The position numbers were made by a program, and so were the translations under genes. DNA of 64,000 nucleotides from an uncultured Alphaproteobacteria bacterium (GTDB taxonomy: Bacteria; Pseudomonadota; Alphaproteobacteria; HIMB59): contig CABYRL010000001.1 of assembly GCA_902521465.1 (NCBI GenBank), positions 1 through 64,000 of the forward strand, read 5' to 3'. The notes under the pieces were generated by a model. The model was not told where the DNA came from. It saw only the letters and a program-made list of their open reading frames with translations, and did not search any database. Shown here one piece after another: positions 922 to 33,428 of the stretch. The number at the start of each line of letters is the position of its first letter. The first letter of the stretch is position 1.

Positions 922-1721
922 ATTATTCTAGTAATTGTTTTAAAATATAAATAATTTAAATACATATATGCATTTTTATGAATAGAATAGTTTATATTCT
1001 TTGCAAAATTGTCTTTTTTAATTGAAAATATTAATTTATTGGGTCTGAAAAACTTTTTATCAACTTTAAAATTCAAATAAAAAAATATCTTATCGATTGA
1101 GAAAAATGATAACCAATGTTTATGGTGACGTGTAATATGTTTGGACAATAAAGAGCTTAATACATCTTTTGAAAAATCTATTGAAGGTTCATAAAAAATT
1201 ATCTTACCATCTTTTTTTAATAAAAAGTCAAATTCTTTCATCAGATTTTTGATATCATCAACAAAATGGAAGCTATTTCTCATATAAATAATATCAAAAG
1301 ACTCTTTTTGATGATATTTTTTTAATTCTTTAATATTTTCATAAGTAATTCTATTATTAGAATTAGCATAATTCCTATACTTTTTAGAGATTTCTATGCC
1401 AAACACATCTATATTTTTATTTCTAAGTGCCTCATGCATGTAACCAGCACTTGAGCCAAAGTCTAATAAATTTAATTTATGTGAACTTTCTAAATAGTTA
1501 AAATAAGATAAGGATTTTGACAAATCTTTAATTTTATTTTTGAATTTAATATCATTTATAAAGTTAGTTTGCGGTCTGTATAATATATTTTCTTTTAGAT
1601 CATTTAAATTATTTTTTGGATTTGTGTCAAATATGTAATTACAGTTGTTACACATAACCCAATAATTACAAATACTTAATAATTTTTTATCAGCACAAAT
1701 CTTACACTCTTGATATTTCAT
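918..1721 (-). CDS. SAM-dependent methyltransferase with N-terminal zinc-finger-like motif
   Basis: Class I methyltransferase, 267 aa. Two CxxC pairs near the N-terminus (C6/C9 and C24/C27) form a probable zinc knuckle, as in sugar C-methyltransferase-like proteins. The SAM motif I is at residues 88-95 (DFGSSAGY), followed by an acidic residue at the end of the next strand (FGIEIS). A later SFHFVDD segment fits the post-II motif. It overlaps the LIC12162-type gene upstream and the sulfotransferase downstream by 4 bases each. The likely substrate is a nucleotide-linked or polymer sugar; a different small-molecule acceptor cannot be excluded. Confidence 0.7.
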   Translation of the reverse strand: MKYQECKICADKKLLSICNYWVMCNNCNYIFDTNPKNNLNDLKENILYRPQTNFINDIKFKNKIKDLSKSLSYFNYLESSHKLNLLDFGSSAGYMHEALRNKNIDVFGIEISKKYRNYANSNNRITYENIKELKKYHQKESFDIIYMRNSFHFVDDIKNLMKEFDFLLKKDGKIIFYEPSIDFSKDVLSSLLSKHITRHHKHWLSFFSIDKIFFYLNFKVDKKFFRPNKLIFSIKKDNFAKNINYSIHKNAYMYLNYLYFKTITRII

Positions 1722-3433
1722 ATTTTCAATGTCTTATATAAATTATCGATTTGAGAGTTTTTACAATAATTGTTTAAAAATAATACTCTTAATTTCTGTA
1801 TTTTTTTACTAAACCACCATGAATGAATATTATTATAATTTTGTATAATAAAATTAGCAGCTTCATCTGGTTTATCAAAAAAAATATTATTTTTTTTAAA
1901 ATCATTAAAAAAAATTTTGACTTGCTCATTTAGCTCCCAGTGTTGAGGATTCCAAAATATAATTGTGGGTATATTATTATAAAGAGCCTCTAAAAAAGTG
2001 GTTGCATTGTAAGTTGATACAAATATCTTACATGTTTTTAAAGAATTAGTTATATTTTTATTAGTATCAATTCTTAAATTTTCAAAACTATTTGCTAAAA
2101 ATTTTTTTTCTCCCCAATTGTAGTCTGCCTTATGATAAAATCTAACGACTAGTTTAGAATAAATATTATTATTAAATTTTATCGAATTGATAAACTTATA
2201 TTGATCATAAATATATTTAATAAATTGGCCGGATATAAATATACTATAAATGATATAAAAGTATTTTGGGCATGATCCCAATACTAATAAAATATCTTCA
2301 TTTTTGTGATCGTATTTGGCTTTGAAATTTTGATCATTTATTTTTCCATAACTAATAATTTTTTTTAAATAATTTTTCCATCCCCAACTCAAATAAAGGT
2401 TAGATGAATTAATTTCATGATCTTGATATGTATTAAATTTAGCAATACCATAGTTTCCACCATGTTGCCCATAAATTAGTTTAGTGCTATATAATTCTTT
2501 TTGTAAGGACGCATAAAATATAAATAAATCGTTATTAAATATATTTGAAACTCTAAATATTACTCTAGGTCTTTTTGGATAAATTTTTAAAGCTTGATAT
2601 GAAGCACTCTGAAAATCCTCTAGGTAACATTTAGGTATTAGTAAATGTATAAAATAATCAATGAAATCCTCAAAATTATTCGTTTTTAAAATATTTTGAT
2701 TTCTAAATTTATAATCAATATCTTGATTATCATATTTCCAGTCATAATCAAAAAAAAACAAGGGTATTTGTTTTAATTTCAAATTTAACAAAAAAAAATC
2801 TTTCCTTAAGAGACCATGACCAACAAAGAAATATTTATATTTAAATAAGCTAAAAATGTTTTTTGAAATAAAAGATATAACTTTTTTAAGTATAGTTTTA
2901 AGCATATTAAATTTTTGTTTTTTAATGTTCTCTATTTTAATTAAACTAAAAGTTTTTTTAGGATATAAAGTTTTAGCAAAAATTGAATATAAGAATGTCC
3001 TCCATTCTTCAATATAAATACTAGATCTAAAATCACTAAAACTATTTGGTATAAAGTTTTCAAATTCTGTATTACATATTGGAATTTTGTATTTAACTTT
3101 GTTTAGTTCATCAGAGTTTAACATACAAAACTTATCATATGAAATTTGCATAAATTGTTTAAGCCAAAGTCCAATTGTATTGTTCCAAAAATTATCTGAA
3201 TAATTTATATTATGATATTTATTTAATTGATAAGCTAAATTTTTTATTTTTTTAGAATATAAGTAGTTTATATATTTATAATCTTTATAAAGTTTCTCTC
3301 TATCGTCCCAGTGGTATTTTATAACTTTTTCTTTATTATTATTAAAATTGTTACTAAAACACCATTCACCTAGATAAATTTTATTTTTAATATTAATATT
3401 TAATTTATTTGTTAGGATAAGGTTGTACTGCAT
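1718..3433 (-). CDS. LIC12162-family putative transferase
   Basis: A 571-aa protein resembling the LIC12162 family of putative transferases found in polysaccharide clusters. The start region contains the characteristic LGEWC (residues 21-25) and, soon after, YHWDDREKLYKDYKYI. The C-terminal part (with STYNATTFLEALYNNIPTI) resembles the donor-binding half of GT-B glycosyltransferases. No signal peptide is visible, so it probably acts in the cytoplasm. Its ATG overlaps head-to-head with the divergent formyltransferase ATG in a shared CATG, leaving no intergenic space. The exact reaction of this family is not established. Confidence 0.65.
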   Translation of the reverse strand: MQYNLILTNKLNINIKNKIYLGEWCFSNNFNNNKEKVIKYHWDDREKLYKDYKYINYLYSKKIKNLAYQLNKYHNINYSDNFWNNTIGLWLKQFMQISYDKFCMLNSDELNKVKYKIPICNTEFENFIPNSFSDFRSSIYIEEWRTFLYSIFAKTLYPKKTFSLIKIENIKKQKFNMLKTILKKVISFISKNIFSLFKYKYFFVGHGLLRKDFFLLNLKLKQIPLFFFDYDWKYDNQDIDYKFRNQNILKTNNFEDFIDYFIHLLIPKCYLEDFQSASYQALKIYPKRPRVIFRVSNIFNNDLFIFYASLQKELYSTKLIYGQHGGNYGIAKFNTYQDHEINSSNLYLSWGWKNYLKKIISYGKINDQNFKAKYDHKNEDILLVLGSCPKYFYIIYSIFISGQFIKYIYDQYKFINSIKFNNNIYSKLVVRFYHKADYNWGEKKFLANSFENLRIDTNKNITNSLKTCKIFVSTYNATTFLEALYNNIPTIIFWNPQHWELNEQVKIFFNDFKKNNIFFDKPDEAANFIIQNYNNIHSWWFSKKIQKLRVLFLNNYCKNSQIDNLYKTLKI

Positions 3434-9443: not shown

Positions 9444-10141
9444 TAATTTTTAAGAATTTTTAATTTTTTAATTAAATTAAGATCTTCCTCATTGTCTATT
9501 TCATAGCTAGTTATTGTCTTAAATGCTAAACACTTTCGACCATATAGTGTATTATTAAATAAAATTTCTTTCACTTTCACAATATCAATATAGCCATTTG
9601 CTTGATAAGTAATAGGGAAAGATTGTCGTGGTTGATTTGCAATTTCAAGGTTATTTTTAACTAAAATGCTTTTTAATAGATTTTTTTTTATTTCAAAAGT
9701 TTTATAAGCTGACTCGCTCATTTCATGAACAGATCTCATGGAGGTGTAATTTTTAATATTTTTCCTAAAAAACTGTATTGCTTTGTTAATTACTTTTATT
9801 TCTCTATATGGAGTGGTTGGACGTAAGTGAACAAATAAATCATCTGTAGATAACTTTAATGATTTTATAATATGAATAAAAAACTCTATATCTTTACTTT
9901 TGTCATTAGATATAGATTTAGGTCTAAGAAAAGGTACTTCAGCACCATATTTTTTTGCTAAATTCGCATATTTAATTGAGTCCGTTGAAACGAGAACTCT
10001 ATTTATAAATTTTGATTCTAAAGCAGCTTTAACAGTCCAATAAATAAGTGGTTTGCCATTTAAGATTTTAATATTCTTATCTTTAATACCTTTGGACCCA
10101 GATCTTGCAGGTATGACTGCAATAATATTATATTTCTTCAT
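9443..10141 (-). CDS. CMP-nonulosonate (acylneuraminate) cytidylyltransferase, set A
   Basis: Activates a sugar acid with CTP. The N-terminal signature IPARSGSKGIKDKNIK (residues 10-25) and LVSTDSIKYA match NeuA/PseF/LegF cytidylyltransferases, and the length of 232 aa is normal. It is followed with 1-base overlaps by the GmhA-like isomerase upstream in transcription and the aminotransferase downstream. It is clearly different from the second cytidylyltransferase at 16.8-17.6 kb, which argues that the operon makes two different CMP-sugars. The exact sugar is not determined from sequence. Confidence 0.8.
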   Translation of the reverse strand: MKKYNIIAVIPARSGSKGIKDKNIKILNGKPLIYWTVKAALESKFINRVLVSTDSIKYANLAKKYGAEVPFLRPKSISNDKSKDIEFFIHIIKSLKLSTDDLFVHLRPTTPYREIKVINKAIQFFRKNIKNYTSMRSVHEMSESAYKTFEIKKNLLKSILVKNNLEIANQPRQSFPITYQANGYIDIVKVKEILFNNTLYGRKCLAFKTITSYEIDNEEDLNLIKKLKILKN

Positions 10142-10707
10142 TAAATATTTTTTTCAAGATAATCAACAGCAGAGTGAAGAATCATAATGGTTATCTCTTG
10201 TATAACATCAGTATCTAATGAGTTTATATTAATAAGACTTTCATCATTAACAAAGAAACCATTGTCACTTCCAGTGATAACTATGTATTTAATATTCTTT
10301 TTTTTACTTAATTGAACTAGATCATAAATATTATTACTTTTAGCACTTGTGGTTAAACAAATTAGCAAGTCACTATTTTTGGCACAAGAGTCAAATTCCC
10401 TTAGAAATATTTTTTCGTAACCATAATCATTTGCAACTGCAGTAGTGTAAGCAATATTAGCACCTAATACTAAAGATGGATAAGAGTCTCTTTGTGTTTT
10501 AAATTTACCAGTAAATTCTGCTGAAATATGCAGACTATCTGCAAAGCTACCGCCATTACCAGCAAATATTATTTTACCTTTATTCTTAATGGTATCTTTA
10601 ATAAGTAATGACATAGATAATAATTTTTGTTCAAAACTTTTATTATTTATAATATTTTTATAAATAGACTCATGTGTTTCAATTTTTTGGTAAAACTCTT
10701 TGATCAT
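10141..10707 (-). CDS. GmhA-like SIS-domain sugar-phosphate isomerase
   Basis: A 188-aa single SIS domain matching phosphoheptose isomerase, which converts sedoheptulose 7-phosphate to D-glycero-D-manno-heptose 7-phosphate. The phosphate loop GNGGS is at residues 50-54; H60 and E64 in the following helix (LHISAEFTGKF) and a C-terminal histidine in ILHSAVDYL fit the catalytic site. It overlaps the NeuB-TIM gene by 4 bases. Finding it between a NeuB homologue and a CMP-sugar synthetase is unusual: a heptose phosphate may feed the nonulosonate synthase. A role in LPS core heptose is the alternative. Confidence 0.75.
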   Translation of the reverse strand: MIKEFYQKIETHESIYKNIINNKSFEQKLLSMSLLIKDTIKNKGKIIFAGNGGSFADSLHISAEFTGKFKTQRDSYPSLVLGANIAYTTAVANDYGYEKIFLREFDSCAKNSDLLICLTTSAKSNNIYDLVQLSKKKNIKYIVITGSDNGFFVNDESLININSLDTDVIQEITIMILHSAVDYLEKNI

Positions 10708-12590
10708 ATATAGTAATTTATTTTATTAAGTGCTTTTTTAAAACCTTCACCGTTATTTTTGTGTCCTTGCCAAATTTCAGGAATAAAAGTTATATCATTA
10801 AATTTTTTATAAATATCAAAAAATTTTTTGAAGTTTATCTCACCATCTCCAATTTGGATACCCTCACCATTTAAACCATAAGCATCAGCTATATGAATAT
10901 GATTAGTGACACTCATAATTTTTTTAGTAAATTTAAAAAAATCATAATTAATATTTTTACAAGATAGATAACTATGAGAAGTATCAAAGCATATTGGGAG
11001 ACCTAAATTTTTGGACCATTCTATAATTTCATCAATATAAACGAATAAGTTTTGATATCTCTGTCCTCCAAAATGCCAAGGGTAAGGAGCCATGGTTTGA
11101 GGTGACAAAGTGACATTTTTATGGTTTATTTTTTTTAGAGATTTATGCAATAAATCATATGCTTTTAACTTTTTGCTTTTGGAAAACTCTTTATCCATAG
11201 AAAATCCACCCAAATTTGCAATAACTATAGGCCTATTAGTGTTAGGAAATAATTCATTAAGTTTCTCTGTAAGATCTATTGTTTTTTGAAGATTTTTAAT
11301 TGAGGAATTTCTGTATTCTAAATCATTGCTAGCTAAATCCAATAAATGGCTTTTGGAGTAGAGTTCTGGTGCGTGAACAACCAATATTTCACTGTTATAT
11401 TTTGGTAATAGTTTTTTAAAATCAAGATGCTCATCTTTTTCTGAAAGATGAAATTCATATAGTTTACATTGAAATTGATTTTTAATTTTTAAAAAATCAT
11501 GAAACCTTACAGGCACGCCCCAAATTAGAGGAAATTTTTTTCTAATTAGAAGTTTTTTATTTTTAGTAAGATAAGACATTGGGATTTGGTCATTTTTATT
11601 TATTTTTTCAATAACTCTCTTTCCAATAATTTTATTAATAAACTGAGGAGAAATTCCATCTCCAGGGCTTCTAAAATCAAAATGAGAAGATTTAAATTTC
11701 ACATTTTTTTCAATATCTTGATTTGCAACAATACTTTTTGAAAGATTTTCCCTATTTATGAACTCGCCTTGGGTAATAATTTTTTTTCCATTTCCCATAG
11801 CTTTTTCTAAATCTCTCAAATTTCGTGTAAGCTCTTTCATCTCTTCAAAAGTTAAGCTGGCGGCGTGATCAGGCCCTTCCATGGATCTGTCAAGAGTAAA
11901 ATGTCTCTCAATAACTTTTGCTCCCATAGCAGCAGCTGCTATTGAAATTCCAATTCCTCTTTCGTGGCCAGAATAACCTACAATTGGACAAATTTTTTTC
12001 AACTTACTAATAAAGTTTAAATTAATATCATGGAAAGGGGCTGGATATGTACTATTGCAATGTAAAACAACAGTATTAATCTTTGATTTTTTAAATAATG
12101 AATATGTTTTTTTTATTTCATTTAACGTGCTCATACCAGTGCTGATAAATGTTGGTTTTTTTGTTCTTATAATTTTTGCAATTAAACCATAATTGTTTAA
12201 GTCTGCTGAAGCTAATTTATAAAAATCGACATTTAAGCTTTCTAAAAATTCTAAGCTTTTTGTATCCCAGGGTGTACACAAGTAAATTATTTTTTTTTGT
12301 TTACAGTAATTAAATAGTTTTTTGTGATCGGCTAAAGTCAGTTCAGTTCTTTTTAATAAATCAATGGTATATTCTGCGCTTAAATCAAGGGATTTTTTAG
12401 TGGTTTTTGAGTAAAGTTTTTTCAAATCTCTAATTTGAAACTTAACGCAATCTACTTCAGCTTTTATGGACAAATCAATCATGTTTATTGCTCTTTCAAA
12501 TGAGCCATTGTGATTATTGCCTATTTCAGAAATAACAAAAAATTTATCTGAACCAATTATTTTATTTTTAATATAAAATTGATTTCTCAT
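10704..12590 (-). CDS. NeuB-family synthase fused to a C-terminal sugar isomerase-like TIM barrel
   Basis: About 628 aa in three parts. Residues 10-270 form the NeuB barrel that condenses PEP with an aldose (VISEIGNNHNGS, HCNSTYPAP, GYSGHERGIG, ERHFTLD). Residues 275-345 form the SAF antifreeze-like lid (FRSPGDGISP). The remaining roughly 280 residues resemble the xylose-isomerase-like/AP-endonuclease-2 TIM barrel (FCFDTSHSYL-like and HIHIADAYG, FIPEIWQGH metal motifs). The ATG at 12590 is chosen because a GGAGG box lies 6 bases upstream; the frame extends 11 codons further but without such a site. Normal NeuB is about 340-350 aa. Confidence 0.75.
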   Translation of the reverse strand: MRNQFYIKNKIIGSDKFFVISEIGNNHNGSFERAINMIDLSIKAEVDCVKFQIRDLKKLYSKTTKKSLDLSAEYTIDLLKRTELTLADHKKLFNYCKQKKIIYLCTPWDTKSLEFLESLNVDFYKLASADLNNYGLIAKIIRTKKPTFISTGMSTLNEIKKTYSLFKKSKINTVVLHCNSTYPAPFHDINLNFISKLKKICPIVGYSGHERGIGISIAAAAMGAKVIERHFTLDRSMEGPDHAASLTFEEMKELTRNLRDLEKAMGNGKKIITQGEFINRENLSKSIVANQDIEKNVKFKSSHFDFRSPGDGISPQFINKIIGKRVIEKINKNDQIPMSYLTKNKKLLIRKKFPLIWGVPVRFHDFLKIKNQFQCKLYEFHLSEKDEHLDFKKLLPKYNSEILVVHAPELYSKSHLLDLASNDLEYRNSSIKNLQKTIDLTEKLNELFPNTNRPIVIANLGGFSMDKEFSKSKKLKAYDLLHKSLKKINHKNVTLSPQTMAPYPWHFGGQRYQNLFVYIDEIIEWSKNLGLPICFDTSHSYLSCKNINYDFFKFTKKIMSVTNHIHIADAYGLNGEGIQIGDGEINFKKFFDIYKKFNDITFIPEIWQGHKNNGEGFKKALNKINYYI

Positions 12591-13941
12591 TAGACCTCCA
12601 TACTGAAAGACCAAAGTCATCAAATTTTATTTTAATATGATTAAATTTATTTTTTTTAATCCAGTCACTGAATTGTTTAATTTTACTTGGGTTTATTATA
12701 AAAAAAATAAAACCTCCTTGACCAGACCCTAATAATTTTGAACTTAATGCACCATTTTTGAGACCTTCTTTAATTATATTATCAATTTTTTTTAAACTCA
12801 CTTTATTTGAAATAGTCTTTTTAAATAACCAGTTTTTATTTATTTGATCATTAAAATTTATAAAGTCCATTTTTGATAAATAGTCTTTCATCTCATATGC
12901 ATTAGAATATAAATTAGCTATATCTTTATTTAATTTTTCTGATGGTTTTCTAAAATTAGATTTATGTATATTTCCAGAATTATGAACTCTCTTTGTATCT
13001 ACAAGTGATATATAAGTTTCTAGTTGATCACGCATCTGTTTTGGAATTTTTAATTGATTGACAATATTTTTTTGTTTTGATAGTTCAATAAAATTAAAAC
13101 CACCAAAAACGGTCGCATACTGATCTTGCCATCCTCCCTTTTGTTTAAAAACAATTCTTTCTGCCTGAAAACACAGTTCTGAAAGCTCATATTTTGACCA
13201 TTGATAGTCTCTTAAATCATTGAAACACCCAAATATACTTGCTAACAAAGCAGTAGATCCTGCTAAACCAGATCCAATATTAAAGTCAGAAAATAAATTT
13301 AATTCAAATCCAAAATCAGGTTCAATAATTTTTATAGCTGCTCTTATTAAATTAAATTCATCGTCTGCATTTAAAAATTTATTAATATCTTTAAATGAAA
13401 TTATTTTATTTAAATTAAAACTATAAATTATAATCTTTTTGTCATCTCTTATATTTAAGATACAATTTGAGTACATATTTATAGTAGCATTAAGTACAGC
13501 TGTTTTGTTTTCAAAAAGATACTGCGTCATATCAGATCCACCCCCAGAAAAACTTATTCTGCCAGGCGCTCTAGAGTGAATAGTAAATTTTGTTTTTTTA
13601 TCAATAATGAAATTATTTTTAGAGTAAATATCTAATAATCTTTTTTTATTATCAATGAGAGGAATTAATCTTTTATTCATATCCAGAGCTTTTAAGATAA
13701 AGTCTCTTGTGGTTTTTGAGGTTGCATAAATAAAATTTTTATTTACGGCTTGAATTACCAGATCTGATGTTTTAAAACCATCAATTAAGCATCTTCTAAT
13801 ATCTCCATCAGTGAGAGTTCCAATAACTATATTATTATTATCTATTACTATTAAAGCACCTTGCTCATTATTCTCTATTTTTTTTAAAGCAGTAGCTATT
13901 TTTGAATTTTGTTTAATGATTAATTTAGAATTAATTTTCAT
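12568..13941 (-). CDS. CBS-domain/GHMP kinase fusion (HddA-like sugar kinase)
   Basis: A 457-aa protein. Residues 1-112 form a CBS pair (GTLTDGDIRR at 41-50), a module that binds adenosyl ligands and is often attached to sugar nucleotidyltransferases. From residue 118 follows a GHMP kinase with APGRISFSGGGSD (125-137) and the ATP loop IGSGLAGST (222-230), most like D-glycero-D-manno-heptose-7-phosphate kinase HddA. It overlaps the NeuB-TIM gene by 23 bases and the next upstream gene by 4. The combination of CBS and sugar kinase is uncommon and suggests adenylate-sensed control of pathway entry. Confidence 0.75.
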   Translation of the reverse strand: MKINSKLIIKQNSKIATALKKIENNEQGALIVIDNNNIVIGTLTDGDIRRCLIDGFKTSDLVIQAVNKNFIYATSKTTRDFILKALDMNKRLIPLIDNKKRLLDIYSKNNFIIDKKTKFTIHSRAPGRISFSGGGSDMTQYLFENKTAVLNATINMYSNCILNIRDDKKIIIYSFNLNKIISFKDINKFLNADDEFNLIRAAIKIIEPDFGFELNLFSDFNIGSGLAGSTALLASIFGCFNDLRDYQWSKYELSELCFQAERIVFKQKGGWQDQYATVFGGFNFIELSKQKNIVNQLKIPKQMRDQLETYISLVDTKRVHNSGNIHKSNFRKPSEKLNKDIANLYSNAYEMKDYLSKMDFINFNDQINKNWLFKKTISNKVSLKKIDNIIKEGLKNGALSSKLLGSGQGGFIFFIINPSKIKQFSDWIKKNKFNHIKIKFDDFGLSVWRSNEKSILY

Positions 13942-15930: not shown

Positions 15931-16845
15931 TTATTTCTTATATATATTATTAAAAAAATATAATAACAATTTATTTTCGACATACTTAATAGCATCTGTA
16001 TTATTTCCCCCTGAATGATTTGTTGATATATAATTATATTTTTTTCTAATCTTGGATATATTTTTGGTATTAAAAACTTTAAACAAATTATCATAATTTA
16101 TAAAGTCTGTACCATATCCATAAATTTTATTTAACTTTAAAGAATTTAGAGTAGTGTATTCATCTATAACCCAATTTCTAGAAATATTAATTAAAATTGA
16201 ATTCTTTTTCATTGTATTGATTAGATATGAGTCAATACATTTAAAATTAATTTGATCAGATGTTATACAAATTATGATTATATCTGATTTTTTGAACAAA
16301 TTAATTATACTTACTTGTTTAGCATTAGATACTTTAATTGGTTTTAAGTCAGAGTATAATACTTTACATCCAAAAGAGAGCGAATATCTATGTAACATTT
16401 TCCCAATTCTTCCCATACCTACAATTCCAACTACTTTGTCTTTTATCTGAAATCCAACTGGTTTTTTTCTTTTAGTAAACTCAATTTCATTAAATTTTCT
16501 ATACACTAATAATGTTAGCATCCATGCATGTTCTGCTGTAGAGGATACATTATGAAGTTTTTTTTTGATATTTCTTAATGAGCTTACAATTATTTTTTTT
16601 TGATTACAGTAAGATAAATCTACATGATCGAGTGCTGTTGTAAAAGTTATGATATATTTTAAATTTTTAAATTTTATTAAAAAATTTTTTTTTAAACTAA
16701 ATCTGAGTCTAGAAATAATAATTTCAAATTTAGAAAAATCTTTTATTTTATTTGAAAAGGCTACGACAGAAAATTCATTTGGAATATTTTCATAATCAAA
16801 TAATTCGTCCTCTAATATTAATATATTTACTTTTTTAAGAGACAT
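15931..16845 (-). CDS. D-2-hydroxyacid dehydrogenase family protein
   Basis: A 304-aa NAD-dependent D-isomer-specific 2-hydroxyacid dehydrogenase. The dinucleotide motif is VGIVGMGRIG (139-148), the substrate-binding Arg is R223 in NISRNWVID, and the catalytic His is H277 in TNHSGG. At the position where the usual DVFExEP supplies the catalytic Glu, the sequence reads GTDFINYD, so the Glu seems to be absent; activity may be altered. In this setting it could reduce a 2-oxo acid that decorates the glycan (for example a lactyl or glyceryl group). It overlaps the cytidylyltransferase by 19 bases. Confidence 0.7.
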   Translation of the reverse strand: MSLKKVNILILEDELFDYENIPNEFSVVAFSNKIKDFSKFEIIISRLRFSLKKNFLIKFKNLKYIITFTTALDHVDLSYCNQKKIIVSSLRNIKKKLHNVSSTAEHAWMLTLLVYRKFNEIEFTKRKKPVGFQIKDKVVGIVGMGRIGKMLHRYSLSFGCKVLYSDLKPIKVSNAKQVSIINLFKKSDIIIICITSDQINFKCIDSYLINTMKKNSILINISRNWVIDEYTTLNSLKLNKIYGYGTDFINYDNLFKVFNTKNISKIRKKYNYISTNHSGGNNTDAIKYVENKLLLYFFNNIYKK

Positions 16846-17567
16846 TTAGCTATTTTGAAATCATCCTCTATATCAATGTTAATAGACCTCTCCCAAGGCA
16901 TAATATAAATATCTGGATTATGGCTTTTAACTTTTTTAAATTTTTTAAAAAAATGATAATCAAATAGATAGATACAACCATTTCTTTGGTAAACTTTGAA
17001 ATATTGATCCCTAGTTTCATATCTTTTTTTTGGTTTAATTAAATGTCTTATATCGTTATTTTGTTTTAAAACGTACATGTCTTTTGGATGTCTCATTCCC
17101 TCCGCTTCACAAACTGAGATAAGAGATTTTTTCTTACCTGAGTTATACTTATTTATTGCATTATTTATGTCTATTGTAGACCTTAATGGCGATGTAGGCT
17201 GTGCAATTAAAATTGTTTCAGGCTTATAAAAAATACTCTTATTAATTTTTTTTAAAACATCATTTACATAATCAGAACTTGTTGATTTAGATTTAGAAAT
17301 ATTCTGACTTCTTTTAATTAATAATAATTTCTTATCGAATTTATAATAATTAATTATCCTTTCGTCATTTGTTGTAATAACTATTTTGTCAATTAAATTA
17401 CTCTTTTTTAAAGATTGAACGGTAAAGTCAATAAGTGGTCTATTATTTATAAGTCTCACATTTTTATTCTTTACTCCGACAGATCCCTTTCTAGCTGGAA
17501 TTATTGCTAAGACTTTTTTAGTTGAATTTAATTTTATTAAATCTTTTCTTATTTTTGAATTTTTCAT
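16827..17567 (-). CDS. neuA: CMP-nonulosonate (acylneuraminate) cytidylyltransferase, set B
   Basis: A 246-aa cytidylyltransferase with the motif IPARKGSVGVKNKNVR (23-38) and the family segment AQPTSPLR. It works with NeuC and NeuB directly upstream in transcription: NeuC makes the 6-carbon aldose, NeuB adds pyruvate from PEP, and this enzyme loads CMP. The start at 17567 overlaps the NeuC end by 50 bases, longer than is usual; about 17 N-terminal residues before the first strand may be an extension. It could be NeuA or the legionaminate equivalent LegF/NeuA2. Confidence 0.8.
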   Translation of the reverse strand: MKNSKIRKDLIKLNSTKKVLAIIPARKGSVGVKNKNVRLINNRPLIDFTVQSLKKSNLIDKIVITTNDERIINYYKFDKKLLLIKRSQNISKSKSTSSDYVNDVLKKINKSIFYKPETILIAQPTSPLRSTIDINNAINKYNSGKKKSLISVCEAEGMRHPKDMYVLKQNNDIRHLIKPKKRYETRDQYFKVYQRNGCIYLFDYHFFKKFKKVKSHNPDIYIMPWERSINIDIEDDFKIAKCLLKK

Positions 17568-18684
17568 TTTCCAATATTTTAACTATTTTTTTACCAGCTT
17601 CACCGTTACCATATTTTAGAGAATTTTCGAACTTTAAACTGAGATTATTCTTAATTGCATTCTTAATTGCATTTTTCAAAGGGGGTATGTCAATTATATT
17701 TAAATCTCTTTCTCTTCCCTCTTGTCTTTTACCTATATTGATTGAAAGAGTACCTAAATATGAAGACTCTCTAATTCCAGCACTTGAATTACCTATAATT
17801 AGATTAGCCTTATTTAGTAAGTTCAAAAAATCATCTGGCGAAATATTTTTAATATAATAAAAGTATTTACTTTTTATATTTTCCCTAAATTTTCTGATTG
17901 ATTTGGATATCAAATCTCCACCAACATCTTGATTTGGCCAAAACACTATAGTAGGAAATTTTAATTCGTGAAGAGAGTGCAGTATTCTTGTCATATAAAC
18001 TCCAGATTTAGTATAATCATAAGTATCAGAGTGAAACATTAGTATTGCAAAATTTTTGTTTAAATTTTGCTTGTATCCAACACCTTGGTACTTATCATAA
18101 AAATGTAATTTCTTTTTAATAGATTTTTTTGCAATATCTATAGATGGACATCCTGTGAAAAAAACACAATTCTTATCCTCTCCCATTTGAATAATATTTT
18201 GATATGATTCTTTTGTTGCGGGGAAGTGTAAATCAGCTAATTTTGTAACAGCGTGCCTGACCTTTTCATCGATATTTCCACTAATCTCCCCTCCTTGTAC
18301 ATGAGCCAAGGGAATGTTTAGGTAAGTTGCAGCTATAGCAGGGGCTATAACTTCGTATCTGTCCGCCATTACCATAACTAAATCAGGATTATACTTGTTA
18401 AAACAATTTGAAAATTCAGCTATTGCAAGTGAGGTAGATTTAGCAGCATTGATTGGTTTTTCTTGCTCTAGTGTGAAATATATTTTATCAGAAATTTCTA
18501 AATTATCTTTTTTTATAACAGACTCAAGGTCTCCAAATCTCTCTAAAATAGCTGACCCTGAGCAAATTAATTTAAGTTCTAGAAGTCTTGATTTATTGAT
18601 ATTAATTAAAACCGTTTTAAATTTTGTATAGCTAGATCTAGCAGTCACAACCACTAAGATTAGTTTTTTTTTTCTTTTAGTCAT
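17518..18684 (-). CDS. neuC: UDP-N-acetylglucosamine 2-epimerase, hydrolysing (NeuC/LegG type)
   Basis: A 388-aa GT-B-fold epimerase that releases UDP while converting UDP-HexNAc to the 2-epimer. Typical motifs are VMADRYEVIAPAIAATYLNI, then AHVQGGEISGNIDEKVRHAV, and FTGCPSID; the C-terminal IGNSSAGIRE and GERQ-like GKRQEGRERDLN complete the UDP site. In sialic acid synthesis it gives ManNAc; in the legionaminate pathway LegG acts on a dideoxy sugar. No dehydratase or aminotransferase of the legionaminate type stands next to it, which favours a neuraminate-like product, though such genes could lie elsewhere. Confidence 0.85.
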   Translation of the reverse strand: MTKRKKKLILVVVTARSSYTKFKTVLININKSRLLELKLICSGSAILERFGDLESVIKKDNLEISDKIYFTLEQEKPINAAKSTSLAIAEFSNCFNKYNPDLVMVMADRYEVIAPAIAATYLNIPLAHVQGGEISGNIDEKVRHAVTKLADLHFPATKESYQNIIQMGEDKNCVFFTGCPSIDIAKKSIKKKLHFYDKYQGVGYKQNLNKNFAILMFHSDTYDYTKSGVYMTRILHSLHELKFPTIVFWPNQDVGGDLISKSIRKFRENIKSKYFYYIKNISPDDFLNLLNKANLIIGNSSAGIRESSYLGTLSINIGKRQEGRERDLNIIDIPPLKNAIKNAIKNNLSLKFENSLKYGNGEAGKKIVKILENEKFKNKKRFNKIKFN

Positions 18685-18686
18685 AA

Positions 18687-19733
18687 CTACTCAAAATCAG
18701 ATACTTTAAGGAGTCTATTTGAAGGAACATTTTTTTTTAATTTTTTTCCAATGAATTTTTTAATTTCAAATTCTTTTATACCAGTACCAGGTTTTTTAAA
18801 AGTAAAATGACTTTTCTTTAGAATTGTACCTTTTTTTTTATTTGAGACCAAAGAAAGAGATTTAGAAAATTTAGATCTTGTTTTAATCAAATCCTTAGAA
18901 ATAGTATTTTTAGTTACGTGACTATTTTCGATTTCAAAAAATGAATTATTAAAATTAATTAAACTTTCTATTTGATGAATATCTAGTGATGAACTAACAT
19001 CTGGACCAAAAAATTTTTTATGAAAAGTAATATGTATCTCTAAAACTTTTACCTTTTTGGTAATACTTATTATCGGTGCATATATATCTCCTGTATGATC
19101 TGAATATCCTATATTACAACTAAATTTATTTTTTAAATATTCAATATTGTTCAAACCAACTTTTTTTAATGGTGTTGGGTACATAGAAGTACAATGCATA
19201 AGAACAAAATATTGATTTTTTCCGATGTGTTTTATAGCTTTTTTAATTTCATTATTATTACTCATACCTGTGCTTAATAATATCGGTTTGTCTTTAATCG
19301 AATTAAATTTTTTTAAAATGTTGTTTGAGTCAAATTCTCCAGAGCCTATCTTATAGGCATCAACATCTAAAAGATTTGCGTAATTTAGTGCTTTCTCTGA
19401 GAAAACTGATAATATAAATAATAAATTATTTTTTTTTGCCTTATCTCTTAAAATTTTCCATTGGTCTAAACTAAATTCTGTTCTTTCCCAATAATCAAAT
19501 CTATTTTTATCTTGAATACTAAAATTTATTCTAAATTTCTCATCAATTGTTGATTCTTCTTTAGCTATATGGAGTTGAAATTTTACACCATCTGCACCTA
19601 ATTCTTTAGCTATGTCAATATATGAAAGTGCTTGACCCAATGAGCCGTCATGGACTTGAGCTATTTCTAAAATAATTATAGTTTTAGTATAAGATTTTTT
19701 TTTTAAGTTATTTTTTAATTCTTTTAATTTCAT
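18687..19733 (-). CDS. neuB: N-acetylneuraminate synthase family protein, set B
   Basis: A 348-aa PEP-dependent sialic acid synthase, normal length for NeuB. The barrel motifs are ILEIAQVHDGSLGQAL, GADGVKFQLHIAKEE, LSTGMSNNNEIKKAI, MHCTSMYPTP and NIGYSDHTGD. The C-terminal SAF domain is present (SRSKFSKSLSLVSNKKKG, KKPGTGI, IGKKL). The metal and PEP residues of the family appear kept. It lies 2 bases upstream of neuC and directly after the ABC exporter, at the head of the operon. It differs from the set A fused NeuB in having no additional domain. Confidence 0.85.
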   Translation of the reverse strand: MKLKELKNNLKKKSYTKTIIILEIAQVHDGSLGQALSYIDIAKELGADGVKFQLHIAKEESTIDEKFRINFSIQDKNRFDYWERTEFSLDQWKILRDKAKKNNLLFILSVFSEKALNYANLLDVDAYKIGSGEFDSNNILKKFNSIKDKPILLSTGMSNNNEIKKAIKHIGKNQYFVLMHCTSMYPTPLKKVGLNNIEYLKNKFSCNIGYSDHTGDIYAPIISITKKVKVLEIHITFHKKFFGPDVSSSLDIHQIESLINFNNSFFEIENSHVTKNTISKDLIKTRSKFSKSLSLVSNKKKGTILKKSHFTFKKPGTGIKEFEIKKFIGKKLKKNVPSNRLLKVSDFE

Positions 19734-22474: not shown

Positions 22475-23212
22475 TTATTTTTTTAATAATTTAATTACTC
22501 TTTGAATATCGGATTTTACGTCAACTGATTGAGTTTTAGTTTGTGTTTGAATTGTATCCACTTTAATTCCTGACTCTAAAAATCTAAACATATCAATAGA
22601 TTCCTGCTTTTCAATATAACCCTGTCTTGTTTTAGTAAAAATTTTCAATGAATTCATAGTAAAGCCAAATATACAAACCTGTTTGTAATAAATATTTTTT
22701 TTTTGTGATGAGTGAAAATTAGACGGTATTGGTAATCGAGAAAAAAATATTGCTTTATTGTTTTTGTCTAAAGCAATTTTAATACAATTTGGATCTTCAA
22801 TTTCATTAATATCATGAATTTTATTAATCATATTTACTACTTGAGATTTATTACTTTGCATATATTTAAGAGTTGATTCTATCATTTTTTTGTTAATGAG
22901 AGGTTCATCACCCTGAATCATAATTATATTTTTTAAATTTTTAATTTTGTTAATTTTAATTGCTGCCTCATAAGTTCTATCTGTAGCTCTTTGGTGTTTG
23001 ATTGATGTCATAATAAATTTACATCCAATTTTTTTACAAAAATTTGCAATTTTTTTATCACAAGTAGCAACATAGGTATCATCAATTCCTTTTGCTCTTT
23101 TGGAATTATCAATTATATATTTAATCATTGGTTTTTTTAAAATTTCTACAAGAGGTTTTCCAGGCATGCGAGTACTAGACATCCTACAAGGTATAATTAC
23201 AACATTACTCAT
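22475..23212 (-). CDS. kdsB: 3-deoxy-manno-octulosonate cytidylyltransferase-like protein
   Basis: A 245-aa CMP-Kdo synthetase family enzyme. The N-terminus IIPCRMSSTRMPGKPL and later IMIQGDEPLI match KdsB; the length is typical. It activates Kdo or a related 3-deoxy-2-ulosonate with CTP. The gene overlaps the HpcH/HpaI aldolase gene by 8 bases and ends the operon. Whether it serves lipid A-Kdo synthesis or a separate Kdo-like sugar is open: kdsA, kdsD and kdsC are not beside it, and the linked aldolase suggests a different 2-ulosonate source. Confidence 0.85.
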   Translation of the reverse strand: MSNVVIIPCRMSSTRMPGKPLVEILKKPMIKYIIDNSKRAKGIDDTYVATCDKKIANFCKKIGCKFIMTSIKHQRATDRTYEAAIKINKIKNLKNIIMIQGDEPLINKKMIESTLKYMQSNKSQVVNMINKIHDINEIEDPNCIKIALDKNNKAIFFSRLPIPSNFHSSQKKNIYYKQVCIFGFTMNSLKIFTKTRQGYIEKQESIDMFRFLESGIKVDTIQTQTKTQSVDVKSDIQRVIKLLKK

Positions 23213-23972
23213 CTAAAAAATTTTTCATAGAATTTATAATTAACTCAATGTCAATTGAACAGGCTATAAAACTATAATTATCATTGATTAACTTTTTGAG
23301 ATCACTCTTTGATGGTTTAATTAAATGAATACCAATTGATTTTTGATAATTTTTGCATTTTCTTTTAATTTCTTTTAAGGCATTAATAAATATTTTATTT
23401 TTAAATTCACCAGGTATACCTAAAGATGCTGAAAGATCGTATGGGCCAATAAAAATTGCGTCAATCTCATTTATTTTGAGTATTTCATTTAAATTTTCTA
23501 AAGCTTTTACATTTTCAATCATTACAATTTTTATAATGCTTTTAGATAACTCCAAATATTTTTCGAACTCTAATCCATATTTGTTTGCTCTAAAGTAGCC
23601 AACACCTCTATTTCCAATTGGCGGAAAATTAATTTTCGAAAATAATTTTGATAAATTATTTGCATCGTTTACGTTTGGTATGACTATACCCTTTACACCA
23701 CAATCAAGATAACTTGTTATCTCTGTTGCATCCATTGAAGCGGACCTAATAAATGGAATAGCGCCTCCTATTTCTATAGATTTAATAAGATCTGAAACTT
23801 TGTATCTTGAGTTTGGATTACCATGCTCAGAGTCAATACAAACCCAATCTATTCTTGAAAAAGATGATAATATTTCTGCAATATCACTAGACCCAGATTG
23901 TAACCACCCTCCCAAAGTAGGTTTTCCAGATCTTATTTTTTTTTTTAAATTCTTTAATTTATTATTTATCAT
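23205..23972 (-). CDS. HpcH/HpaI family class II pyruvate aldolase
   Basis: A 255-aa TIM-barrel aldolase of the family that joins or splits pyruvate and an aldehyde with a divalent metal. Motifs include GGWLQSGSSDIAEI, DWVCIDSEHGN with the catalytic His, a metal Glu in VMIENVKALENL and the metal Asp in FIGPYDLSASLG. Pyruvate plus an aldose would give a 3-deoxy-2-ulosonate, which fits the overlapping kdsB downstream. It overlaps the epimerase gene upstream by 11 bases. Catabolic cleavage of a keto-deoxy sugar acid is the known role of many relatives. Confidence 0.8.
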   Translation of the reverse strand: MINNKLKNLKKKIRSGKPTLGGWLQSGSSDIAEILSSFSRIDWVCIDSEHGNPNSRYKVSDLIKSIEIGGAIPFIRSASMDATEITSYLDCGVKGIVIPNVNDANNLSKLFSKINFPPIGNRGVGYFRANKYGLEFEKYLELSKSIIKIVMIENVKALENLNEILKINEIDAIFIGPYDLSASLGIPGEFKNKIFINALKEIKRKCKNYQKSIGIHLIKPSKSDLKKLINDNYSFIACSIDIELIINSMKNFLDE

Positions 23973-24831
23973 TATTGCTTAATATATGCTCTATAGTTTG
24001 TTTAAGGCCCAAATTGAAATCTATAAATTCGTTTGAGGTATAATTAGTTATATTTTCATAATTTATTGAATAAGGAGTTAGGTCATAATGATGCTTGTTA
24101 TCTTTTTTATTAAATTTTGATTTTAGCCTAATTCCTAACATTTCAGATAAAGTATCCTTCAATTCAATCATCTTTATTTTTTCAGATCCAGTAATATTAA
24201 TAATTTTATTATTATATTTTGGTTTTAAAATTTCTATGCAAGTTTTTACAGCATCATAAATATGAATATATTCCCTTGTACTTTTTATTGATCCGTTATA
24301 TGAGAATATTTTTTTTTTTAAAATACCTTGTATTATGTTATGAAGTCCATTTGTATTGTTAGAATAAGGACCATATAAAGATCCAAATCTCAAGATAGTA
24401 TATTTTAAGCCATAACTTTTGTAATATTCTTCTATATATTTTTCTGCAGCATATTTAGAACATTTATAAAAGCTTCCTTTTTCACTATCTGCATATATAG
24501 AACTAGAAAAAATTATTTTTTTTACTCTTTGCTTTTTGCATTCCTCTAAAACATTTAATGTTCCTAAAATATTTGAAATTATAGTTTCTCTTGGAACTGA
24601 AGTAGATTTATTTAAATCAGATACACCAGCAAAATGATACACATAATCACTTCCTTTTATGGCTTTAGATAAAGATATCTTATCAGATAAATCGCATTTT
24701 ACATATTTTGATTTATTTAGGAAATTAGGTGGGGCGCTTAAATCACCAATTGTTATACTATGAGTATTTTCATAAAGCTTTGCTAAGATAGACCCTAAAA
24801 AACCTGAACCTCCAATTATTGATAATTTCAT
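23962..24831 (-). CDS. NAD-dependent sugar epimerase/dehydratase (extended SDR)
   Basis: A 289-aa extended short-chain dehydrogenase acting on sugar nucleotides. The N-terminal GGSGFLG binds NAD, an acidic residue follows the second strand (IGDLSAPP), and the catalytic YxxxK appears as YKCSKYAAEKY with an upstream FSSSIY serine. It is shorter than GalE/RmlB (about 340 aa), closer to small epimerases such as GDP-mannose or nucleoside-diphosphate-sugar epimerases. It sits between HAD and aldolase genes, so it may make the aldose precursor of the predicted CMP-ulosonate. Confidence 0.75.
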   Translation of the reverse strand: MKLSIIGGSGFLGSILAKLYENTHSITIGDLSAPPNFLNKSKYVKCDLSDKISLSKAIKGSDYVYHFAGVSDLNKSTSVPRETIISNILGTLNVLEECKKQRVKKIIFSSSIYADSEKGSFYKCSKYAAEKYIEEYYKSYGLKYTILRFGSLYGPYSNNTNGLHNIIQGILKKKIFSYNGSIKSTREYIHIYDAVKTCIEILKPKYNNKIINITGSEKIKMIELKDTLSEMLGIRLKSKFNKKDNKHHYDLTPYSINYENITNYTSNEFIDFNLGLKQTIEHILSNNDK

Positions 24832-24840
24832 AACTTGATA

Positions 24841-25488
24841 CTACAAAGTATTCATGATTAAAAAATTTTCAATGTAAAAATTTGTAGTTTTATTTTTTCT
24901 AAAATTTTTTCCCAAACCTATGAATTTTATATCTAGATTTTTGCATGCGTTATAATCATTAATTGAGTCACCTATAAAGATATAATTTTTTTTAATACCT
25001 TTATTAATTATATTTATTAAATTATTTCTTTTAGTTTCAGGATAGCCATAAATGCCTTTAAAAAATTTAAATAGTTTAATTTTTTTTAAAATATAATTTA
25101 ATTCATTTTTAGGAGCTGAGCTACAAATATATAATTCTTTTTTTCTATAATTTTTTTTTATAAATTTAAAAGCTCCAGGTATTTCAGGTGTCTTAATGAT
25201 TTTCTCTATTGAAAGTTTTTTAAATTGATCGGTAAGCAAATTTAAACCTTTTTTATCTAACTTAACACCAAGGTACTCCTTATGGTATAACTTAAATTTA
25301 TCAAATCTGGACATACCACCATTTTTCATATGATGATTAATAACTTTTTTTGCGATTTTATCTCCATAAATCTCATAAATTTGATAAAAGCAGTCTCCTT
25401 TTATATTTACAGAGTCAAGAATTACTCCATCAAAGTCAAATATTATTGAGTCTGATAATTTAATTATTTTCCCTAATTCATCTTGCAT
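24841..25488 (-). CDS. HAD-superfamily phosphatase (PGP/beta-PGM type)
   Basis: A 215-aa haloacid dehalogenase-like hydrolase with the nucleophile motif FDFDGVILDS, the motif II serine in YICSSAPKNE and the acidic motif IV FIGDSINDYNAC. A helical cap lies between the first motif and the core. In this operon it could remove phosphate from a sugar phosphate, playing the part that KdsC or GmhB play in Kdo and heptose synthesis, but it is of a different HAD subtype than KdsC. It is the first gene of a four-gene leftward operon. Confidence 0.75.
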   Translation of the reverse strand: MQDELGKIIKLSDSIIFDFDGVILDSVNIKGDCFYQIYEIYGDKIAKKVINHHMKNGGMSRFDKFKLYHKEYLGVKLDKKGLNLLTDQFKKLSIEKIIKTPEIPGAFKFIKKNYRKKELYICSSAPKNELNYILKKIKLFKFFKGIYGYPETKRNNLINIINKGIKKNYIFIGDSINDYNACKNLDIKFIGLGKNFRKNKTTNFYIENFLIMNTL

Positions 25489-31271: not shown

Positions 31272-33428
31272 TTGAATCAAAGCCCTTTCATTAAACAATT
31301 AGTATTAGTAGGCGGAGGGCATGCAAATGTGCAGGTTCTGAAAAAGTTATGCATGAATGGTATTAAAGGACTTCATACAATTCTAATAAGTGAGCATTTT
31401 GAAGCTACATATTCAGGTATGACACCTGGATATATTCATGAAGATTTTAGCAAAAATGAAATAAGCATAGATCTTCAAAGGTTATGCTTTAATGCAGGAG
31501 CAACATTTATAAAAGATAAAGTAATAAATTTAGACACACATTATCAAGAACTTAAGTTACAAAATTTTCCAAATATTGTTTATGATTTGTTATCAATTAA
31601 TACAGGATCAATTTCTAATACGAAAAAAATAAATATTGAGGGTTCTTCTAAATATTTTTTTGTTAAACCAATTAGCTTGCTAGTAAAAAACCTAAAATAT
31701 ATTGATCAAATTATAAGAAATAAAAATAATAAAATTGTAATAATTGGTGGAGGGGTAGCATCATATGAATTGGCTTTTAGTTTAAAAAGGAGGTATCAGA
31801 CTCCTTTAGAAATCACAATTTTAGGTAAAAAAATATTAGAAGAGAAAAATTTAAATAAAAAAACAAAAAATAATTTAAAAAAGATAGCAAAAAATTTTGG
31901 CATCAAAGAGTATTTAGGAGAAGTTATTAAGATTTCAGAGAAATATATAACTTTAAATAATGGTGAAAAAATAAATTGTGATTTAAGTTTAGTTTCTACA
32001 GGTGCAAGTAATGAAAAATGGCTTTTAGATAGCAATCTTCTAAAGGACGAAAAAGGATTTATTAAAGTAGATACAAATCTTTTGTCTATTAATGAAAAGA
32101 ATATTTTTGTTACAGGTGATGCATGCAGTATAGAAAATAAACCTAGACCAAAATCGGGAGTAATGGCAGTTCGTCAGGGAGAAGTATTAAAAGAAAATAT
32201 TTTTTTTAAATTAACCGGTAAAAATCTAATTAAATTTAAACCACAAAAAAACTGGCTTTATTTAATTGGTACATATAAAAATTATGCTCTTTTAAATTAT
32301 TTCTTCTTATCTTTTCATAGTCAATGGTGCTGGGAACTCAAAAAACAGATTGATAAAAATTTCATTAACAAATTCAAATTTATAAATAATACACAAATGT
32401 CAAAAAGAAACTTTGAATTGGAAAATTTCAAAAATACCAAAATGCATTGTCAAGGTTGTGGTTCTAAAGTTTCAAAAAATACTTTGATTAATTATATAAA
32501 AAAAACTTCTGATAACATTTATTTAAGAGACTCATCAATAATAACAAATAAATCATTAAAAATATTACAAACAATAGATCATATAAAACTTTTTTCATCA
32601 CTTAATCCTTTTGATTTCGGTAAGATAAGTTATTTACACTCTCAAAATGATATATTAGCTGCTGGTGGAGAAGTAAAATCTCTCAGTGTTTCTCTAAATA
32701 TTCCCTTCTCCGAAAATTCTGTTGAAAAATTTTATTTAGAGTATTTTATGGAGGGAATTAAATTTGAAGCAGACAAGGACAAGTGTATCATTTCATCTGG
32801 TCATAGCTTTCAATCAATAGAGCCAGGTATAACACTTACTTTAAATGGTGAAATAGAAAGTGGTGTTTCAAAAAATTCTGCCAAAGCAGGTGATTTAATT
32901 TATTTATCTAAGCCACTAGGGACTGGTTACTTACTTGCCGCATATTTTAATAATTCTGATATGCTATCTAGTAATGATTTTGAAAAAATTATAAATAATC
33001 TCAAAAAAGGCAATTTTTTTGCTGTTAATGCTGCAAAAATTTCTGGCTCTCGAACAATGACTGACATAAGTGGTTTCGGATTGTCTTCTCACCTAATTGA
33101 CATATGTTTGTCATCTAATTTGTCATCTGAGTTAATATTGAGTTCAGAAATTCTGTTAAATTCAAACATTGATTTGTTAAGAATATTTCAAAGTACTGGT
33201 TTTAAAAATAACTACAAGTCTTCTAGGGAATACATAAAAATATCAGAAAACCATCCTTTTAAAAATATTCTCTTTGACCCACAAACAAATGGTCCAATGT
33301 TAATTGCAATTGAAAAACAAAATCAAAAAATTTTTGAAAATTATTTTTTAAATAAATCAGATGTCAAACCTATTTTAATTGGTAGATTTATAGATAAATT
33401 AGAAAAGGCTATAAGTGTAATTGAATAA
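31272..33428 (+). CDS. selD: NDH-like oxidoreductase fused to SelD-like selenide, water dikinase
   Basis: A 718-aa two-domain protein. Residues 8-370 form an FAD/NAD pyridine nucleotide-disulfide oxidoreductase (VLVGGGHANV at 11-20, IVIIGGGVASYE at 155-166, FVTGDACSIE at 279-288). Residues 390-718 form a SelD-like ATP-dependent kinase with HCQGCGSKV (392-400), TIDHI and a shortened DFGKISYLHSQNDILAAGG. SelD makes selenophosphate for selenocysteine or selenouridine; this fusion type is known (N-terminal-to-SelD family), but its exact chemistry is unclear. The start is TTG, since no in-frame ATG stands before the first FAD motif. No other selenium gene is in the window. Confidence 0.85.
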   Translation: MNQSPFIKQLVLVGGGHANVQVLKKLCMNGIKGLHTILISEHFEATYSGMTPGYIHEDFSKNEISIDLQRLCFNAGATFIKDKVINLDTHYQELKLQNFPNIVYDLLSINTGSISNTKKINIEGSSKYFFVKPISLLVKNLKYIDQIIRNKNNKIVIIGGGVASYELAFSLKRRYQTPLEITILGKKILEEKNLNKKTKNNLKKIAKNFGIKEYLGEVIKISEKYITLNNGEKINCDLSLVSTGASNEKWLLDSNLLKDEKGFIKVDTNLLSINEKNIFVTGDACSIENKPRPKSGVMAVRQGEVLKENIFFKLTGKNLIKFKPQKNWLYLIGTYKNYALLNYFFLSFHSQWCWELKKQIDKNFINKFKFINNTQMSKRNFELENFKNTKMHCQGCGSKVSKNTLINYIKKTSDNIYLRDSSIITNKSLKILQTIDHIKLFSSLNPFDFGKISYLHSQNDILAAGGEVKSLSVSLNIPFSENSVEKFYLEYFMEGIKFEADKDKCIISSGHSFQSIEPGITLTLNGEIESGVSKNSAKAGDLIYLSKPLGTGYLLAAYFNNSDMLSSNDFEKIINNLKKGNFFAVNAAKISGSRTMTDISGFGLSSHLIDICLSSNLSSELILSSEILLNSNIDLLRIFQSTGFKNNYKSSREYIKISENHPFKNILFDPQTNGPMLIAIEKQNQKIFENYFLNKSDVKPILIGRFIDKLEKAISVIE

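Follow-up and report, generated by a model that had tools for sequence, protein, structure and literature searches.

Organization of the Operon

The CMP-ulosonates that are known (Kdo and the sialic, legionaminic and pseudaminic acids) are, to our knowledge, all made with PEP-dependent synthases. In the present study, we analysed a stretch of 64,000 nucleotides from an uncultured, apparently marine alphaproteobacterium of the HIMB59 lineage (the window), which carries a KdsB-like gene joined to a gene for a pyruvate-type aldolase and thereby raises the question of whether a CMP-ulosonate could be made by an aldolase route. The original prediction placed a HAD-SDR-aldolase-KdsB operon at 22475-25488, and all four genes were found at these coordinates on one strand. 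They form a compact minus-strand operon, whose order in the direction of transcription is HAD, SDR, HpcH/HpaI aldolase and KdsB-like gene.

The first gene (24841..25488, minus strand) encodes a HAD family hydrolase of the HAD_2 type with a type IA cap (PF13419, 3.8e-14; TIGR01549 above cut-off). The motifs DFDGVILDS and GDSINDY were recognized in its sequence, and the product would be a sugar-phosphate phosphatase. After a gap of 9 bp follows an extended SDR of the NAD-dependent epimerase/dehydratase superfamily (23962..24831, minus strand; Epimerase PF01370, 7.7e-38). In an alignment of seven members, the GxxGxxG motif and S110/S111-Y122-K126 were invariant, and the TDE dehydratase motif was absent. 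The SDR gene overlaps by 11 bp the gene of an HpcH/HpaI-type class II pyruvate aldolase of a glycan-linked subfamily (23205..23972, minus strand; PF03328, 8.2e-25). The last gene (22475..23212, minus strand) encodes a KdsB paralogue resembling CMP-ulosonate synthetases (CTP_transf_3 PF02348, 4.8e-45; NCBIfam KdsB models); its predicted overlap with the aldolase gene was measured as 8 bp. The gene calls of the window and the family scans revealed no PEP-dependent synthase adjoining the KdsB paralogue and no NeuB in the operon.

The aldolase belongs to the HpcH/HpaI class II superfamily, as indicated by the PF03328 match together with the catalytic and metal-binding residues. According to the alignment, it keeps the catalytic His50, Arg76 and Asp90 and the metal ligands Glu153 and Asp179, the roles of the catalytic residues being those discussed for HpaI (PMC8560999). 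The closest solved structures were YfaU (2vws) and AbHpaI (7et8). Although the protein shares the fold family, the catalytic His, Arg and Asp and the metal-binding Glu and Asp with HpaI, YfaU and GarL, it scored far below the equivalog cut-offs of these enzymes (124 vs. 369, 120 vs. 441 and 109 vs. 407 bits, respectively) and sits in glycan rather than catabolic loci. In the phylogenetic tree, the glycan-linked aldolases fell on a separate side from HpaI, YfaU and GarL (SH-aLRT 90). The identification of the window aldolase with the common non-glycan homologue of the order was rejected; that homologue (C1:498271) is 30% identical over part of the protein and groups apart.

Sequence Analysis of the KdsB Paralogue and Kdo Genes Elsewhere in the Genome

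The window KdsB scored below the equivalog cut-off of TIGR00466 (152.4 vs. 155.2 bits) and below the cut-off of NF009905 (249.7 vs. 255), and above that of the subfamily model NF003952 (242.4 vs. 193). It has the Arg/Arg/Lys of the CTP loop and the two metal-binding Asp (R10, R15, K19, D102 and D231). These residues are the CTP and Mg ligands of KdsB, and Kdo is bound by the C-terminal domain (PMC3149649). We compared 64 paralogues with 15 housekeeping or solved KdsB. R15, K19, R79, Q100 and D102 were invariant in all 64 paralogues, and D231 was kept in 59. Relative to the housekeeping and solved proteins, the paralogues showed the changes S75>R, G76>A, N98>M and T127>N, as well as H178>Q (54/64), G180>C (47/64), E207>D (54/64) and Q208>M (50/64). 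In the sugar half, the KdsB motifs HxGxY and LEQLR appear in the paralogue clade as QxCxI and IDMxR; the window KdsB itself has QxCxF, IDMFR and RATDR where the housekeeping and solved KdsB have HxGxY, LEQxR and SGTDR. The window KdsB is a paralogue in which the CTP/Mg site is kept and the sugar half is changed as a coherent set. A single clade (support 98/92), apart from the housekeeping KdsB, held 55 of the 64 paralogues, and those of the type B and type C layouts described below branched separately. The clade covers at least 10 phyla, including Pseudomonadota, Cyanobacteriota, Chlorobiota, Omnitrophota, Bacteroidota, Actinomycetota, Nitrospirota, Thermodesulfobacteriota, Acidobacteriota, Bdellovibrionota and Planctomycetota.

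The assembly of the source genome comprises 1.34 Mb and is 92% complete. It encodes four clear CTP_transf_3 proteins, namely the window KdsB, two NeuA-type proteins of the window and one housekeeping KdsB (C1:125549-126247), which is flanked by pheA and a gene for cytochrome c. The original prediction had pointed to kdsA, kdsC and kdsD as genes to be sought elsewhere in the genome. KdsA was found as a single copy in its usual pyrG-kdsA-eno context (C2:142794), a KpsF/KdsD-type isomerase at C1:442540 and WaaA at C3:85210. For KdsC, there was no TIGR01670 match in the whole genome despite the presence of KdsA and KdsB; either a phosphatase other than KdsC must serve the Kdo pathway or kdsC must lie in the missing 8% of the genome. 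The case that would have spoken against the original prediction, a single KdsB serving lipid A, was rejected because a separate housekeeping KdsB, KdsA, KpsF/KdsD and WaaA are present. The lipid A Kdo of the source genome is supplied elsewhere than by the window operon.

Conservation of the Aldolase-KdsB Pair

Across 150 genomes of the same order, a KdsB-like gene was located within 6 kb of 21 of the 23 aldolase hits above 115 bits, compared with 1 of the 87 weaker hits; for two KdsB in this count, the positions were taken from fetched loci. The pairing is thus more frequent than expected by chance. A scan of GTDB contigs with the aldolase alignment yielded 80 loci from many phyla. In a set of 94 related aldolases, the loci being picked by their aldolase, the neighbourhood of 9 kb contained a KdsB paralogue in 65 cases, an SDR in 59, a D-2-hydroxyacid dehydrogenase (2HDH) in 46, a HAD protein in 39 and a NeuA-type protein in 32. 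KdsB was absent from 29 of the 94 loci, many of which had NeuA and some neither. The gene order within the cassette varied freely among the loci, and since the order is shuffled, the link between the genes is a functional one. When 299 Pseudomonadota genomes were searched reciprocally for KdsB, most of the hits were housekeeping enzymes; altered-motif KdsB appeared only in two genomes (G251 and G167), both with the aldolase nearby. The pair, whose occurrence in other genomes had been proposed as a check, is conserved and rearranged across phyla.

Three layouts were distinguished: the window type, type B and type C. Type B comprises six loci from the same taxonomic order (L047-L050, L054 and L273), in which the aldolase and a divergent KdsB are accompanied by a KdsA paralogue, two SDRs and a CBS protein that stands alone. 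These operons combine a PEP-dependent synthase with a pyruvate-type aldolase. Type C (L051-L053) has an HMGL-type aldolase in addition.

KdsA above the cut-off was missing in 7 of the 24 genomes that carry the pair, and in six of these seven a WaaA match above the cut-off was missing as well, the exception being an Acidobacteria MAG. The drafts among the seven could be incomplete; one genome (G251) is complete and consists of one closed contig. Its cassette forms a single operon of the order KdsB-aldolase-2HDH-SDR-HAD, and the closed sequence contains no KdsA above the cut-off, no WaaA and no second KdsB. Its NeuB has a NeuA of its own and lies 1.67 Mb from the operon. In some genomes, the aldolase-KdsB cassette appears to be independent of KdsA.

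Proposed Pathway and Alternative Explanations

The predicted aldolase route to a CMP-ulosonate is supported by the second KdsB, the genome's own KdsA elsewhere, the occurrence of the pair across phyla and the closed genome that has the operon and no KdsA. We consider it fairly probable that the operon serves the synthesis of a CMP-activated non-Kdo 2-ulosonic acid for a surface glycan, by means of a pyruvate-type aldolase and a KdsB paralogue. The direction of the reaction, the order of the steps, the substrates, the product and the contributions of SDR, HAD and 2HDH, as we infer them, would be as follows. The metal-dependent HpcH/HpaI-type aldolase would condense pyruvate with an aldehyde derived from a sugar. 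The resulting 2-keto sugar acid, a 2-ulosonate, would be coupled by the KdsB paralogue to CMP from CTP, and a glycosyltransferase of the island would then move the ulosonate into the cell-surface glycan. The HAD protein would probably remove a phosphate and thus free the aldehyde or the ulosonate. The SDR, joined by 2HDH in many relatives, would probably adjust the stereochemistry or oxidation state, either preparing the aldehyde or trimming the product. Hydroxypyruvate might possibly be the donor instead and would lead to a non-deoxy ulosonate, a speculation that the frequent 2HDH would fit.

Some observations speak against this pathway. The HpaI-type enzymes of known function are catabolic, 29 of the 94 aldolase loci lack KdsB, these loci were picked by their aldolase, and the reciprocal search gave mainly housekeeping KdsB. 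The models of the co-occurring TIGR04326 protein did not point to a Kdo transferase. The 2HDH has no clear place in a simple scheme, and type B operons contain a KdsA paralogue, so the aldolase there need not make the ulosonate. The same KdsA paralogue would suit an explanation in which ordinary Kdo or a derivative, supplied by the housekeeping KdsA, is activated by the KdsB paralogue for the O-chain, the nearby aldolase being unrelated. The source genome does have the Kdo pathway, and the protein matches KdsB models best. We nevertheless regard this explanation as unlikely, since the sugar-half residues are altered as a set in a clade of at least 10 phyla, the operon occurs in genomes without KdsA and WaaA, one of them closed, and no other gene accompanies the aldolase as constantly as the KdsB paralogue.

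The presence of 2HDH near 46 of the 94 aldolases would also agree with a product that is no ulosonate at all: the aldolase would form a 2-oxo acid, 2HDH would reduce it, and the KdsB-like enzyme would place CMP on the acid or on a phosphonate-like group. Related cytidylyltransferases act in phosphonate tailoring (PMC6697681). Such a product seems rather improbable, however, because the protein keeps the fold of KdsB and the CTP/Mg residues typical of CMP-ulosonate synthetases, its place is taken in other loci by ulosonate-activating enzymes of the NeuA type, no neighbouring gene was noted as a PEP mutase and the window operon lacks 2HDH. HpaI-type enzymes of known function cleave their substrates, and the characterized HpaI/YfaU-type enzymes are catabolic (PMC8560999); read in this way, the window aldolase would remove or remodel an ulosonate in salvage or turnover rather than synthesize it. 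We hold cleavage to be very unlikely, given that the window locus has glycosyltransferase-type, O-antigen ligase and exporter genes, with no catabolic or uptake genes noted, and that genomes without KdsA would have no source of the substrate.

Comparison with Known Systems

Like the Kdo pathway (KdsD-KdsA-KdsC-KdsB), the proposed synthesis of a non-Kdo ulosonate ends in a KdsB-fold synthetase with the same CTP/Mg residues, and a HAD phosphatase is present. In contrast, the window operon has no KdsA, and the pyruvate-type aldolase is the candidate for forming the C-C bond; moreover, the sugar-half residues of KdsB differ, and the window HAD is not KdsC. The NeuB/NeuA pathways (Neu5Ac, legionaminate and pseudaminate) occur in the same islands and also build an ulosonate from a three-carbon unit before CMP activation, but NeuB is PEP-dependent, whereas the window operon has a metal-dependent aldolase. 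Loci with a NeuA-type enzyme beside the aldolase look like a mixed form of the two systems. The retaining beta-Kdo transferases GT99, GT107 and GT140 (PMC12887879) represent the enzyme type expected to use a CMP-ulosonate, although the proteins of TIGR04326 and TIGR04331 encoded close to the cassette were modelled as generic GT-B. In the open-access PMC literature, we found no description of the aldolase-KdsB pair when searching for the pair, small ulosonic acids and the LIC families.

There is about an even chance that the cassette represents a third logic for CMP-ulosonates beside KdsA and NeuB, in which an HpcH/HpaI aldolase, replaceable by an HMGL/DRE-TIM protein, works with a dedicated KdsB subfamily in at least 10 phyla and in viral contigs, independently of lipid A Kdo. 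If true, the acidic sugars of bacterial surfaces would gain a new class through the aldolase route, many of the genes that carry a KdsB annotation would not encode Kdo enzymes, and the KdsB genes of organisms without Kdo would be explained. Bacterial surface glycans are important phage receptors, and viral contigs carry the pair as well.

Exchange of Partners and Viral Contigs

On two Leisingera plasmids (NZ_CP081095 and NZ_CP035420) and in one further locus (L271), an HMGL-like aldolase-type protein precedes a KdsB with the KQVC motif of the paralogues, which on the plasmids is followed by a HAD protein. Pyruvate-specific 4-hydroxy-2-oxo acid aldolases occur among HMGL/DRE-TIM proteins; thus, two unrelated aldolase families accompany the KQVC-motif KdsB. 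The converse swap, a NeuA-type synthetase beside the HpcH aldolase, was seen at other loci as well as on viral contigs. Within four genes of the aldolase in 80 viral loci, NeuA was present in 26 and the KdsB paralogue in 8. IMG/VR contigs (L301-L349, L282, L285, L287-L289 and L343) carried the aldolase with a NeuA- or KdsB-type cytidylyltransferase, often together with 2HDH and SDR. The viral loci suggest that similar sugar pathways are carried by phages; a search of annotated phages returned no full-length aldolase.

The Surrounding Glycan Island

The operon is part of an island of surface-glycan genes near groEL, whose GC content is low (20-28%); the remaining window has 25-37% GC. The island contains an O-antigen ligase, two NeuB/NeuA systems, methyltransferases, an ABC transporter and glycosyltransferase-type genes, and each of the two NeuB genes has its own NeuA. 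LPS O-chain islands of HIMB59 have been described (PMC10734472), and the papers on these islands do not mention the aldolase or kdsB. A 2HDH (15931..16845, minus strand; PF02826, 8.7e-26) lies beside NeuA about 6 kb from the operon, which itself has none. It is of the same family as the 2HDH of the cassette in the 46 loci above and possibly belongs to the aldolase-KdsB cassette.

A transferase of the LIC12162 family (1718..3433, minus strand; TIGR04331, 364 bits) has a GT-B-like predicted fold, and 6 of the 94 aldolase loci likewise have a member of this family nearby. Its predicted model (pLDDT 73.0) gave only generic GT-B structure matches, and the protein is a candidate glycosyltransferase of the glycan island. 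In eight other loci (L062, L064, L066, L068, L070, L081, L087 and L101), the gene immediately after the KdsB paralogue encodes a surface carbohydrate protein of the TIGR04326 (LIC13510) type; the model of this protein (pLDDT 84.6) also gave generic GT-B matches, and Kdo transferases were not singled out.

Further clusters were observed in the window. Positions 9443-13941 encode a fusion of CBS with an HddA-like heptose kinase, a NeuB with a C-terminal TIM-barrel-like domain, an SIS/GmhA-like protein and a NeuA. This may be a second ulosonate-like cluster, making a nonulosonate from a heptose-like precursor. The operon at 16827-19733, consisting of NeuA, a NeuC-type UDP-GlcNAc 2-epimerase and NeuB, corresponds to an ordinary pathway of the sialic/legionaminic type. 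Beside groES/groEL, 31272-33428 encodes a 718-aa protein that, judging from its sequence, resembles a fusion of an FAD-dependent oxidoreductase with a SelD-like domain.
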